Of a stretch of DNA of 19,466 bases, positions 10,014 through 19,466 are shown one piece after another. The DNA comes from Altererythrobacter sp. (GTDB taxonomy: Bacteria > Pseudomonadota > Alphaproteobacteria > Sphingomonadales > Sphingomonadaceae): the NCBI GenBank assembly GCA_011524425.1, contig WTKI01000233.1, forward strand, positions 1 through 19,466, given 5' to 3'. The notes under the pieces were generated by a model. The model was not told the origin of the DNA, made no database searches, and saw only the letters and a list, made by a program, of their open reading frames with translations. Position numbers and translations under genes: made by a program. Numbering within the stretch: the first letter of the stretch is position 1; each line of letters starts with the position of its first letter.

Positions 10014-11390
10014 GTGGCTCAGAACTGGACCCCGGATGGCTGGAAAGCCCATGAAGCGCGGCATTTGCCGGCTTATGAAGACGCAAGCGAACTTGCCGCT
10101 GCTGAGGCCACTCTGGCTGCATATCCGCCGCTGGTCTTTGCAGGTGAAGCTCGCGCGTTGAAAGCCGATTTGGCTGAGGTTGCTGAAGGGAAGGCCTTCC
10201 TTCTGCAAGGCGGTGACTGCGCAGAAAGCTTTGCCGAATTCCACCCGAACAATATTCGCGACACATTTCGCGTGCTGCTGCAAATGGCGGTTGTGATGAC
10301 CTTTGCCAGCAAGCATCCGGTCGTCAAAGTCGGGCGCATGGCTGGGCAATTCGCCAAACCAAGAAGCGCGCCCACTGAAACGCAAGGCGATCTGACTTTG
10401 CCGAGCTATTTCGGTGACAACATTAACGGCATCGAATTTGCGCCGGAAAGCCGTCGCAACGATCCGGGACGGATGGTCAAAGCTTATTCGCAAGCTGCAG
10501 CCACGTTGAACCTTTTGCGCGCATTTGCCGGAGGTGGCTACGCAAACCTGCGCCAGGTCCACCAATGGACGCTTGATTTCATGGGGCGTACGCCGTGGGC
10601 TGAAAAGTTTGCCGAGACAGCGGACAAGATCGGCGATGCACTGGATTTCATGGAAGCTTGCGGCGTTGACCCTGCAACGGTTCCGCAATTGCAAGGCACC
10701 AGCTTTTTCACCAGCCACGAGGCTTTGTTGCTCCCTTACGAGCAAGCGCTAACGCGGCAGGATTCCCTCACAGGGGATTGGTATGCGACCAGCGCGCATA
10801 TGGTCTGGATTGGCGACCGCACCCGTTTTCCGGGCAGCGCACATATCGAATTTGCGCGCGGTATCGGCAACCCGCTAGGCATGAAATGCGGGCCGAGCCT
10901 GGAAACCGATGATTTGCTCAACCTGTTGGATACGCTGAACCCTGCGCGCGAAGCGGGGCGGATCACGCTGATCAGCCGCTTTGGGCACGACAAGGTGGAA
11001 GAGGGGCTGCCGCGCTTGGTGCGTGCTGTTGAGCGCGAAGGCCATCCGGTGGTGTGGAGCTGCGATCCAATGCATGGCAATGTGATCAAGTCAGACAGCG
11101 GCTACAAGACGCGACCCTTCGACCGGATCCTGAAGGAAGTGAAAGGCTTCTTCGCTGTCCATAGGGCGGAAGGAACGCATCCGGGCGGTATTCATATAGA
11201 AATGACCGGTCAGGATGTGACGGAATGCGTCGGCGGCGCAGTAGCAATTACCGATGAAGCCTTAGGCGATCGGTATCACACGCATTGCGATCCAAGGCTG
11301 AATGCAGCTCAGTCGCTTGAACTGGCATTCCTGATTGCAGAAATGCTCAATGACGAGGCTGTCGAAAGGCGCGCTGCAGACGCGGCTTAG
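10014..11390 (+). CDS. Class II 3-deoxy-7-phosphoheptulonate (DAHP) synthase
   Basis: The protein has 458 residues and is full length for class II (plant/actinobacterial-type) enzymes. It catalyses phosphoenolpyruvate plus erythrose-4-phosphate to DAHP, the first step of the shikimate pathway, in the cytoplasm. Visible motifs are [13 protein letters not shown] (metal-binding Cys at 69), [36 protein letters not shown] (metal His), [16 protein letters not shown] (metal Glu) and [11 protein letters not shown] (metal Asp). The start is GTG at 10014 with a weak upstream ACGAGA; no ATG fits better. It stands alone between two intergenic regions with dyads. Allosteric properties cannot be predicted from sequence alone. 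Confidence 0.96.
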
Positions 11391-12665: not shown

Positions 12666-12734
12666 TTTCCCTTTCAATTGCAGCCTGCTTGCGGCATGGG
12701 CTGGCTATCGCTTGGTAGCTGGGAGTATATCTCC

Positions 12735-13970
12735 GTGTCTGGAAGGCCTGTGCAATCTGTCATCGCTAAACCTGCGACCTTGTCGTGTGGTTTCGATGCG
12801 GTGCGAGCGCTGTCTGAAACGCTCGTCGCGCCGCTTAGCGATGCTGACGCTACGCTTCAGTCTATGGAGGATGCCTCTCCTGCAAAGTGGCATCTGGCGC
12901 ACACTACATGGTTTTGGGAAACCTTTCTCTTGCGCGATCACGCGGCGGGATATGCGCTCTATGACGAGCAATATCCGTTCCTGTTCAATTCCTATTATGA
13001 AGCTGAAGGCGAGCGTATTTCGCGCTTTTCGCGCGGCATGCTGTCACGGCCGACATTGCCGGAAATTCTGGCTTGGCGTGAGCATGTCAATGCCGCGATG
13101 CAGCCCCTGCTAGAGCGGGAGGACTTGGCATCTTTGGTCGCGCTCGGCATCGCGCATGAGCAGCAGCACATTGAATTGCTGCTAACCGACATCAAACACG
13201 CGCTTTTCCAAAATCCGATAAAGCCCGCTATGTGGGACGCTGCGGATCCACCCAAAGGCGGCCAAGCGGAAGGCTGGTCTGAGCATCCGGGCGGGATCGC
13301 ACTTATCGGCCATGGACACGAAGGATTTGCTTTCGACAATGAAGGGCCGCAGCATAGGGTTCTGCTGGAGCCGTTCGCTTTGTCGAAGCGGCTAGTGACC
13401 AATCAGGAATGGCAAGCCTTTATTGATGACGGCGGTTATGGAGACGCGCGGCTATGGCTGTCCGATGGCTGGGCTTGGGTGCGGGAAAATGGCATCGCTG
13501 CTCCGCTTTACTGGAGCGAGGAAGCGCATTTCACACATGCAGGGATGCAAGATCGCGATCCGCATGCGCCTGTAACCCACATATCCTATTACGAGGCAGA
13601 CGCGTTTGCGACATGGGCGGGAGCCCGCCTGCCCACTGAATTCGAATGGGAAGCGGTTGCACAAGGGGCTGATCCGAACATCGGGAACCAGCTGGATACA
13701 GCAGCGCCTCCGCTACCGACAGGGTGCGAGAGCCTGTTTGGTGATTGCTGGCAATTCACCCGCTCAGCCTATTTGCCATATCCGCGCTTTCGCCCCGCCA
13801 GCGGCGCTGTAGGCGAATATAACGGCAAATTCATGAGCGGGCAGTTTGTCCTTAAAGGGGCCAGCTGCGCCACAGTAAGAGGCCATTCACGCGCATCCTA
13901 CCGCAATTTCTTCTATCCCCATCAACGCTGGCAATTTACCGGCCTGCGATTGGCAAAGGACAATCCATGA
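12735..13970 (+). CDS. egtB: Ergothioneine biosynthesis sulfoxide synthase EgtB (type II-like)
   Basis: The protein has 411 residues: a DinB-like N-terminal domain fused to a formylglycine-generating-enzyme-type (FGE-sulfatase) C-terminal domain. The non-haem iron ligands are H56 (KWHLAHTTWFWE) and H141/H145 (HEQQHIELL). The enzyme joins hercynine to a thiol with O2 to give a sulfoxide. Y87-Y88 in FNSYYEAEGER match the tyrosine pair described as catalytic in the cysteine-using type II enzyme of Chloracidobacterium. The start is uncertain: GTG 12735 has GGGAG 9 bases upstream; TTG 12678, ATG 12696 and GTG 12750 are in frame. The 3' end overlaps egtD by 4 bp. Confidence 0.93.
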   Translation: MSGRPVQSVIAKPATLSCGFDAVRALSETLVAPLSDADATLQSMEDASPAKWHLAHTTWFWETFLLRDHAAGYALYDEQYPFLFNSYYEAEGERISRFSRGMLSRPTLPEILAWREHVNAAMQPLLEREDLASLVALGIAHEQQHIELLLTDIKHALFQNPIKPAMWDAADPPKGGQAEGWSEHPGGIALIGHGHEGFAFDNEGPQHRVLLEPFALSKRLVTNQEWQAFIDDGGYGDARLWLSDGWAWVRENGIAAPLYWSEEAHFTHAGMQDRDPHAPVTHISYYEADAFATWAGARLPTEFEWEAVAQGADPNIGNQLDTAAPPLPTGCESLFGDCWQFTRSAYLPYPRFRPASGAVGEYNGKFMSGQFVLKGASCATVRGHSRASYRNFFYPHQRWQFTGLRLAKDNP

Positions 13971-14953
13971 GCAGCGCTAAGGGCATCAAGCTCGTCGATC
14001 TGGATGCTGATGGCGTGGACCGCGCATTCCGGTCCGATGTGCTGGCGGGATTGCGCCAGAGGCAAAAGGCTGTTCCTGCGCGCTGGCTGTATGACGATGC
14101 GGGATCACAGCTGTTTGAAGACATCACTCAACTGCCTGAATACTATCCCACGCGCGCAGAGACGCAGTTGCTTAAAGGGCTGAGCGCGCATTTCGCAGAG
14201 CGCATCGGGACTGGCCGGGCAGTCGTCGAATTTGGCTCCGGTAGTTCTGTAAAAACGCCGCTGCTCCTCCAAGCGATTGATCCGGCCGCTTATGTTCCGC
14301 TCGATATCTCAGGAGATTTCTTGCGCGCATCAGCAGAGGAATTGCGAAGCAAATTTCCCGGCCTGTCTGTTTATCCGGTCGAAGCGGACTTCATGCGGCA
14401 GGTGGAATTACCGCAAGAGATCGCGCAATTGCCTAAGCTTGGCTTCTTTCCAGGTTCGACTATCGGCAATATGGTGCCGAGAACTGCTGTCGATCTGCTG
14501 CGAACCATGCGCCAGACTCTGGGCGAAGATTCCCAGCTTTTGATCGGCATGGATCTCATCAAAGCCAGAAAGACGCTGGAAGCCGCCTACGATGATGCAG
14601 CAGGCGTTACCGCGCAGTTCAACCTTAATCTCGCGCACAGGATCAATCGCGAGCTTGGTGGCACCATTCCGGTCGAGGAACTCAATCATGAAGCGCGATG
14701 GAACGATGATTACGCGCGCATCGAAATGCATCTTGTGGCTTCTAAAGCGATTGCTTTTAACGTTGCAGGGGTCGCCTTCGAGATGGCGGCAGGCGAAAGC
14801 ATTCATACTGAAAACAGCCACAAGTTCGGGCGGCGCAGCTCGAACACCTTGCTCCTTGCTGGTGGGTGGACTCCGGTTGCCAGATGGCTTGATGATCAGG
14901 AGCGTTTCTCGCTTATTTTGGCAGAAGCGAGCATTCCGCGAAGCGCCCCGTAA
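13967..14953 (+). CDS. egtD: L-histidine Nα-methyltransferase EgtD
   Basis: The protein has 328 residues, matching the family (about 320). It trimethylates histidine to hercynine with three S-adenosylmethionine. Visible motifs are LPEYYPTRAE (56-65, histidine-binding tyrosine region), VVEFGSGSSVKTPLLL (about 86-101, SAM loop), VPLDIS, FFPGSTIGN, and GESIHTENSHKF near the C-terminus (the Glu/Ser pair holding the substrate amino group). ATG at 13967 overlaps the egtB stop (ATGA), so the two are translated together. No egtA, egtC or egtE is seen in the window, in line with a minimal two-gene pathway using cysteine rather than gamma-glutamylcysteine. Confidence 0.96.
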   Translation: MSSAKGIKLVDLDADGVDRAFRSDVLAGLRQRQKAVPARWLYDDAGSQLFEDITQLPEYYPTRAETQLLKGLSAHFAERIGTGRAVVEFGSGSSVKTPLLLQAIDPAAYVPLDISGDFLRASAEELRSKFPGLSVYPVEADFMRQVELPQEIAQLPKLGFFPGSTIGNMVPRTAVDLLRTMRQTLGEDSQLLIGMDLIKARKTLEAAYDDAAGVTAQFNLNLAHRINRELGGTIPVEELNHEARWNDDYARIEMHLVASKAIAFNVAGVAFEMAAGESIHTENSHKFGRRSSNTLLLAGGWTPVARWLDDQERFSLILAEASIPRSAP

Positions 14954-17526: not shown

Positions 17527-17601
17527 TGGCTGGGGTGGCAGGATTCGAACCTGCGCATGCCGGTACCAAAAACCGGTGCCTTACCGCTTGGCTACACCCC
17601 A
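17527..17601 (-). tRNA. tRNA-Gln (anticodon TTG), CCA encoded
   Basis: The reverse strand starts at 17601 with acceptor arm TGGGGTG, pairing with CACCCCA at 17537-17531. The D-arm region is AGCCAAGCGGTAAGGC. The anticodon stem is CCGGT/ACCGG around the loop TTTTGGT (anticodon TTG), and the T-arm contains GGTTCGAATCC. The discriminator is G and CCA is encoded at 17529-17527. The sequence closely follows E. coli tRNA-Gln(TTG). Total length is 75 nt. Confidence 0.97.
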
Positions 17602-18624: not shown

Positions 18625-18712
18625 GGTTTGGATCGGTTACGGAAACAGCGCTTTGCATGGTGAAATGATCCCGCGCGGTCTTTCAAGCGCAGCCAAACAG
18701 GGCTTGCGTATT

Positions 18713-18729
18713 GTATCCTTATAGGATAC
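18713..18729. promoter_or_regulatory. Palindrome immediately upstream of the HTH-NAD synthetase frame (candidate operator)
   Basis: GTATCC-TTATA-GGATAC is a perfect 6-bp inverted repeat with a 5-bp AT-rich centre, ending 10 bp before the ATG at 18740. Size and symmetry fit a dimeric Cro/XRE-type regulator. Weak -10-like hexamers (TATAGG 18720-18725, GATACT 18725-18730) overlap it, so binding would cover the promoter. There is no Shine-Dalgarno between it and the ATG, which suggests a leaderless or near-leaderless message. Confidence 0.5.
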
Positions 18730-18739
18730 TAATTGGGCC

Positions 18740-19466
18740 ATGCACAAAGCTGGTGAGAAAATACGCGCTTGGCGCGAGGCGCAGAACCCTCCTTTATCTG
18801 CCGAGGAGTTTGGAGTGCAGTTTGGTGCTCCGAAGCCTTGGCCTAGCAGGACGGTTTATGGCTGGGAAGCGAAGGGGAAAATCGCTCGTGCTCCTGTGCA
18901 ACAGCGGTTGGCTCAGCTTGGAATTTGCCAGCCAAATGATTGGGTTACGCCGATAGGGGCGGGCGGAGAAGCTGCAGAAGTGCAGGCTTTTAGCACGCAA
19001 AGTAGGCAGCAAACCGGTAAGGAAGGCGAGCATCCGTTTTTCGATTTGCATACACATGGTTTTGTCCGCGTCGCGACCAGCACACCCAAGGTCCGGACAG
19101 CCGATATAGCTTACAATGCAAAAGGGATACTCGAACAGGCAAAGATCGCTGAGGAGCGTCATGTCGACCTGTTGCTCTATCCCGAGCTTTCGCTGTCTTC
19201 TTACGCTCTTGATGATTTGCATTTGCAGTCGGCCCTGCTCGACAGTGTCGAGCAAAACCTCTCAATGATCGTTCAGGCGAGCAGTGACCTTGCAGTCGTT
19301 CTTGTCATCGGCGCTCCGCTGCGCCGCAATGGACGCATCTACAATTGCGCCGTTGTGATATCGCGGGGGCAGATCCTTGGTGTGGTTCCCAAGAGCTTCC
19401 TCCCGAACTATCGCGAGTTTTACGAAAAGCGCTGGTTCGCTCACGGGCGCAATTGCATTGGCTTGA
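18740..19466 (+). CDS. nadE: XRE-like HTH domain fused in frame to glutamine-dependent NAD+ synthetase (N-terminal part; cut by window end)
   Basis: One frame runs from ATG 18740 to the window end (242 codons) without a stop. Residues 5-65 form a Cro/XRE-like helix-turn-helix: GEKIRAWREAQ, SAEEFGVQFG, SRTVYGWEAKGKI and VQQRLAQLG. A linker of about 30 residues (69-97) leads to HPFFDLHTHGFVRVATSTPK, the usual start of the glutaminase domain of two-domain NAD+ synthetases. The nitrilase-type catalytic Glu (E149 in YPELSLSSYALDDL) and Lys (K218 in VVPKSFLPNYREFYEKRWF) are visible; the catalytic Cys and the synthetase domain lie beyond the window. The enzyme part would make NAD+ from deamido-NAD+, ATP and glutamine. 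An internal GTG at 18980 could start a synthetase without the HTH. A sequencing error joining two genes is not excluded. Confidence 0.8.
   Translation, partial: MHKAGEKIRAWREAQNPPLSAEEFGVQFGAPKPWPSRTVYGWEAKGKIARAPVQQRLAQLGICQPNDWVTPIGAGGEAAEVQAFSTQSRQQTGKEGEHPFFDLHTHGFVRVATSTPKVRTADIAYNAKGILEQAKIAEERHVDLLLYPELSLSSYALDDLHLQSALLDSVEQNLSMIVQASSDLAVVLVIGAPLRRNGRIYNCAVVISRGQILGVVPKSFLPNYREFYEKRWFAHGRNCIGL

Follow-up and report, generated by a model that had tools for sequence, protein, structure and literature searches.

An HTH head joined in frame to NAD synthase

The window, that is, the whole stretch of 19,466 nucleotides that was analysed, ends inside an open frame of 242 codons (18740–19465) with no stop before its last base. 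The encoded protein comprises, in order, an XRE-like HTH module of about 72 aa (18740–18955, forward strand), a linker of about 26 aa (18956–19033, forward strand), and a glutamine-dependent NadE, whose glutaminase domain begins at 19034 and runs to 19465 on the same strand, as supported by NF002730 and CN_hydrolase matches. Directly past the last window base, the contig (C188 of genome G000, 24,148 bases) carries 100 N at 19467–19566, a placeholder rather than a true gap size, beyond which NadE restarts and, as read on the contig, reaches its stop at 20922. The NAD(+) synthase model NF002730 matched protein residues 99–239 at model positions 3–143 before the gap and, with the post-gap part alone, positions 231–675 (725 bits versus a cut-off of 473), so that both parts belong to one gene with about 86 residues hidden. 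The uninterrupted HTH–NadE frame claimed in the preliminary description of this DNA is thus borne out, both by these 242 open codons and by the same fusion in 42 of 249 family genomes, and extending the contig, a check proposed there, showed that NadE continues past the gap. Among neighbouring features of the window, two adjacent ORFs at 12678–14953 (forward strand) resemble an ergothioneine-type pair, presumably EgtB/EgtD, and a tRNA-Gln (ttg) at 17527–17601 (reverse strand) lies between a short-chain dehydrogenase-like ORF, so identified by reading, and a glutathione-dependent oxidoreductase gene.

The catalytic residues of the glutaminase are Glu, Lys, and Cys; YPEL and VPKS lie inside the window and SGGLDS beyond the gap, while the position of the glutaminase Cys falls within the gap, and EICED is present in a relative from Erythrobacter vulgaris (L081). 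CN_hydrolase and NAD_synthase are the only Pfam domains seen in HTH–NadE. The E. vulgaris protein (771 aa) aligned to 3dla, the solved NAD(+) synthetase of M. tuberculosis, over residues 93–770 (858.9 bits), and its first 92 residues are therefore a pure addition. Two weak PF02540 matches elsewhere in the window's own genome correspond, by reading, to GMP synthase and MnmA rather than to NAD synthases.

Pfam found no match within residues 1–107 of the window protein, and the added head was identified through its relatives. HTH_31 was matched by four of nine relatives of the module (best E 6.7e-6), and a free-standing relative from Stakelama pacifica exceeded the HTH_3 cut-off (24.8 versus 23 bits). 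Profile–profile comparison (hhalign) of ten NadE-type heads with a small XRE-domain profile gave 96.7%, a value that is not fully independent because that profile was built largely from weak matches of the searches made in this analysis, and a PDB sequence search with the head returned weak matches only (best E 0.0052). Judged from this set of comparisons, the head module is an XRE-like HTH, despite the lack of a Pfam match in the window protein. Two classes of NadE-type head were distinguished: class-1 heads, including that of the window, read PWPSRTVYGWE where class-2 (Qipengyuania-type) heads read GFKTQTVFGWE.

Distribution of the fusion

Across the 249 family genomes, 47 matched the first 107 residues of the window protein; these included 42 HTH–NadE fusions, three cases of the module on another enzyme, one free-standing module, and one doubtful weak match with stops. 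The fused proteins span 762–863 aa in 40 of the 42 genomes, the window's own being shortened by the gap and that of G176 by a contig end. NadE of the NF002730 type occurs in 126 of the 249 genomes, and one third of these are fused. Named carriers include Erythrobacter vulgaris, Qipengyuania xiamenensis, Q. aquimaris, Q. gaetbuli, Altererythrobacter segetis, and Alteraurantiacibacter buctensis. This search of the head together with NadE in relatives, likewise proposed in the preliminary description, found both in one frame in all 42 fused genomes, some of them single-contig, and such conservation rules out the suggested alternative of a lost stop codon joining two genes.

When about 5.8 billion proteins were searched, 199 candidates emerged, of which 167 matched the head. 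Among the 120 matches listed, PF00795 was found in all, PF02540 in all but two, and an annotated HTH domain in none; the listed database records, both here and in the DAHP-synthase search described below, are named and assigned Pfam domains for the enzyme part alone, so that the regulatory part is overlooked. A literature search covering the titles and abstract openings listed, in some cases a small share of the matches (e.g., 20 of 8,506), with few subscription journals, found neither an HTH–NadE nor an HTH–DAHP-synthase fusion, which is weak evidence of absence.

In the NadE tree, one larger clade takes in the fused proteins, intermixed with unfused relatives, so that the head has been repeatedly lost or gained. 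The tree, like the others, is a quick one without bootstrap, and its 13 changes are an overcount, since one fused locus (L045, genome G235) was mislabelled as unfused. None of 24 named unfused loci carries an HTH module ahead of NadE or an exact GTATCC-N5-GGATAC, the palindrome described below, and for many of these loci the nearest start is immediately upstream of the HPF..HGFVRVA segment. In the same tree, the unfused NadE of a record named Paracoccus saliphilus (L091) groups with the Erythrobacteraceae side, and a ‘Bradyrhizobium’ MAG (L107) and Novosphingobium sp. HII-3 (L108) have nearly identical NadE, as might follow from mislabelling, contamination, or recent transfer.

A palindrome and promoter-like elements upstream of nadE

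Upstream of the ATG lies a perfect 17-bp palindrome, GTATCC-TTATA-GGATAC (18713–18729), whose chance expectation in the window is 0.01 with one mismatch allowed, and which is a candidate autoregulatory operator. An exact GTATCC-N5-GGATAC was found near the ATG in 29 of 30 fused loci, the remaining locus having one mismatch. Genome-wide, the exact pattern occurs in 40 of 42 fused genomes versus 12 of 207 others, and 18 of the 249 genomes contain a reversed control pattern. The two fused genomes lacking it have a site with one mismatch (G146) or a class-2 site instead (G239).

Most fused genomes hold this site only once, as does the window's own assembly (77% complete). A second exact site occurs in seven fused genomes, six of them (L073–L078) in one common coding context and the seventh (L079) in another ORF; the ORF around the extra site was identified in L073 only, where it is TldD-like by reading. 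These extra sites are taken as coding coincidence, and a wider regulon was rejected.

Promoter-like elements surround the palindrome. In the window, a −35-like TTGCGT (18704–18709, forward strand) precedes it, and its right arm plus one base forms a −10-like GATACT (18725–18730, forward strand). A TTG is found 9–10 nt upstream of the operator in 43/44 class-1 fusions, 13/13 class-2 fusions, and 17/18 fusions of a related head to class II DAHP synthase (see below), and the right arm with its next base reads GATACT in 29/44 class-1 and GATAAT in 13/13 class-2 fusions. This arrangement suggests that the operator sits on a likely promoter, with a predicted transcript start near the ATG.

HTH type and operator type change together

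The palindrome differs with the class of head. Class-2 fusions carry TTATC-N7-GATAA upstream in 13/13 cases, and the 47 class-1 fusions carry the exact GTATCC palindrome (42), a version with a GTAGCC left arm (4), or a site with two mismatches (1, L182). HTH type matched operator type in all 60 distinct NadE fusions, with none crossed, a count that includes L182 through a pattern added for it. The underlying tables (60 NadE and 20 DAHP-synthase fusions) hold only fetched loci caught by a regular expression, which missed the NadE fusion of G235 and one DAHP-synthase locus (L199). A later set of 20 loci, two of which (L302 and L303) are species already covered by L083 and L082, agreed in 20/20, with 15 class-1 loci (11 exact, four with one mismatch) and five class-2 loci (5/5). 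At the genome scale, 13 of 15 class-2 genomes have a single ATTATC-N7-GATAAT, in every case at nadE, and 12 Sphingomonas control genomes have none; the two class-2 genomes without this longer palindrome have the shorter TTATC-N7-GATAA.

Along the NadE tree, HTH type and operator type switch three times and at the same places; only two or three of these contrasts are independent, which does not suffice for a sign test. The clearest case is the pair formed by E. vulgaris L081 (class 1) and L080 of genome G239 (class 2), for which NadE DNA is 85–100% identical per 60-bp window from +300 onwards, versus only 40–77% from −600 through the operator and HTH. The breakpoint is less sharp in a second close pair (L020/L183), whose sequences are more diverged. 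In the sequences compared, HTH head and palindrome occur together, are absent together, and are exchanged together.

A related head on class II DAHP synthase

In Sphingomonas and Stakelama, a module of this kind stands ahead of class II DAHP synthase (TIGR01358, 702 bits; L069–L071, L193–L210). In a search with this type, 52 of 127 candidate proteins matched, all with PF01474. Here the palindrome is TTACCC-N5-GGGTAA, exact near the ATG in 18 of 21 fused genes read and with mismatches in L070, L199 (one, in the left arm), and L200; some genes have two copies of it ahead of the ATG. Across whole genomes, 22 exact sites were found in 19 of 22 carriers, every one at the fused gene, and none in 12 control genomes. 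Class II DAHP synthase is present once per genome in each of 16 genomes searched, and that of the window genome is unfused (window 10014–11390, forward strand, located by this search at 10026–11354). At the head/DAHP-synthase junction, a conserved GGAG lies upstream of an internal ATG in several loci (L069, L071, L195, L196, L202, and L204–L210), where a second product is possible.

Free-standing heads are rare (L191, 2475–2708, reverse strand; L068, about 1486–1698; and L192). Two of them adjoin primase/Toprim/DUF7146-like genes, a context that suggests, without showing, a mobile-element origin of the head. Strong head matches across the order (396 genomes) and class (385 genomes) comprised NadE-length frames, DAHP-synthase-length frames, and a few free-standing heads, the four strong matches in the class set all coming from the window's family and five others being weak. 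Seven weaker matches, considered as further enzyme partners, turned out by reading to be generic XRE proteins or HTH-bearing DNA methyltransferases. Three weak head matches (L269, L270, and L271) show, by reading, an HTH ahead of DNA methyltransferase-like sequence, in an M.SsoII-like arrangement.

It is somewhat probable that the operator and XRE head form a portable autorepressor cassette, related to small regulators beside mobile-element-like genes, which in Sphingomonadaceae has been set before two biosynthetic enzymes that are unrelated to each other, NAD synthase and class II DAHP synthase, and is exchanged and lost as a unit, each enzyme then being its own single-target repressor.

Autorepression as the proposed mechanism

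By comparison across these loci, HTH–NadE is very probably an NAD synthase with an attached repressor of its own gene, which supports the preliminary description of a self-regulating NAD-synthesis enzyme: the HTH is paired with a matched palindrome in its own promoter region, and the two are exchanged jointly. Within the NadE oligomer, a pair of N-terminal HTH heads would bind the 17-bp palindrome overlapping the promoter before the ATG. Because a likely promoter lies under the operator, a bound head should block RNA polymerase, making negative autoregulation more probable than activation. With enough enzyme present nadE would be shut off, and as the enzyme is diluted its transcription would come back on. 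The simplest reading is thus a thermostat for enzyme amount, and the variable linker, 21–37 aa long and poorly conserved across 60 NadE fusions (counted from DW to the HGFVR motif), favours this simple form.

The head might also report on the state of the enzyme, an idea raised for glutamine and deamido-NAD in the preliminary description: if the active sites of NadE were occupied by glutamine, deamido-NAD, ATP, or NAD, the HTH heads could be rearranged, and transcription would then follow NAD status as well as enzyme amount. Such gating would fit the direct attachment of the head to the enzyme, seen for two biosynthetic enzymes unrelated to each other, and the behaviour of the enzyme-repressors PutA and BirA, which couple repression to their metabolites; however, linkers that differ in both sequence and length do not suggest a fixed signal path, and we consider this extension possible at best.

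It is rather unlikely that the fused genes yield two products, with a start in the linker giving free NadE and the long form serving as a minor regulatory product. A linker Met is kept near the unfused NadE start in 44/60 NadE and 14/20 DAHP-synthase fusions, and Shine-Dalgarno matches of at least 4 nt precede it more often than control Met codons in both (22/44 versus 81/591 for NadE; 13/14 versus 42/236 for DAHP synthase). Mean anti-Shine-Dalgarno pairing energy is raised for the DAHP-synthase linker Met (−6.76 versus −3.39 in controls), but that of the NadE linker Met equals its controls (−3.33 versus −3.30), and the linker Met could be what is left of the start used before fusion. Some family members may make free enzyme as well. 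The internal start envisaged in the preliminary description is possible in many relatives with a linker ATG, but the linker of the window gene contains a GTG (18980) and lacks any ATG.

Although its arms are able to pair in RNA, the palindrome is very improbable as an RNA leader hairpin with no protein-binding role, given that arm sequences are fixed within each HTH type and follow the HTH, and that the promoter-like elements would put the transcript start past the palindrome. Finally, an assembly error or missing stop that fused two neighbouring genes might be imagined for a genome this fragmented (431 contigs, with the gap inside nadE), but is hardly credible when HTH, linker, and the first 143 NadE model positions all precede the gap and the same fusion occurs in single-contig genomes (e.g., G015, G033, G078, and G158).

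If autorepression by the attached head is correct, an essential enzyme of central metabolism, predicted from sequence alone to be its own transcription factor, comes with a named binding site. Three matched HTH/operator specificities, found almost only at their own gene and naturally swapped between close relatives, would provide a ready system for studying the conversion of an enzyme into a repressor and the evolution of HTH specificity. Should the head also read active-site occupancy, NAD synthesis would be directly tied to the control of its gene.

Comparison with known systems

The enterobacterial NadR combines an HTH with NMN adenylyltransferase and ribosylnicotinamide kinase domains and represses NAD genes. 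Identity with NadR is ruled out by the Pfam content of HTH–NadE, and NadR controls several genes (PMC5343134), whereas HTH–NadE has essentially one site per genome. The same source describes NadQ, which regulates nadE in some alphaproteobacteria (Rhodobacterales and Caulobacterales), as a separate protein with a C-terminal HTH, the site ttATRCTCannntGAGYATaa, and nadABC as core targets (PMC5343134). With its N-terminal head and its GTATCC-N5-GGATAC site, HTH–NadE is not NadQ.

PutA uses a ribbon-helix-helix domain. Like BirA, it is named as an enzyme that doubles as a transcription repressor (PMC6978683). Both resemble the proposed HTH–NadE in uniting a metabolic enzyme with a repressor, but differ from it in their folds and reactions.

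The closest parallel is offered by the cytosine methyltransferases M.SsoII and M.Ecl18kI, which have a regulatory N-terminal region. That of M.SsoII comprises about 70 residues, is followed by a flexible linker, and binds a 15-bp quasi-palindrome in the promoter region; there the protein, in competition with RNA polymerase, reduces expression of the gene that encodes it (PMC3978073). M.SsoII shares with HTH–NadE an N-terminal head of similar size and a palindrome over its own promoter, but it modifies DNA, also stimulates a second gene, is monomeric in solution, and recognizes a different site. By analogy, and with an HTH and a promoter palindrome both found at nadE, the best reading of HTH–NadE is that of a single-target autorepressor in the manner of M.SsoII.
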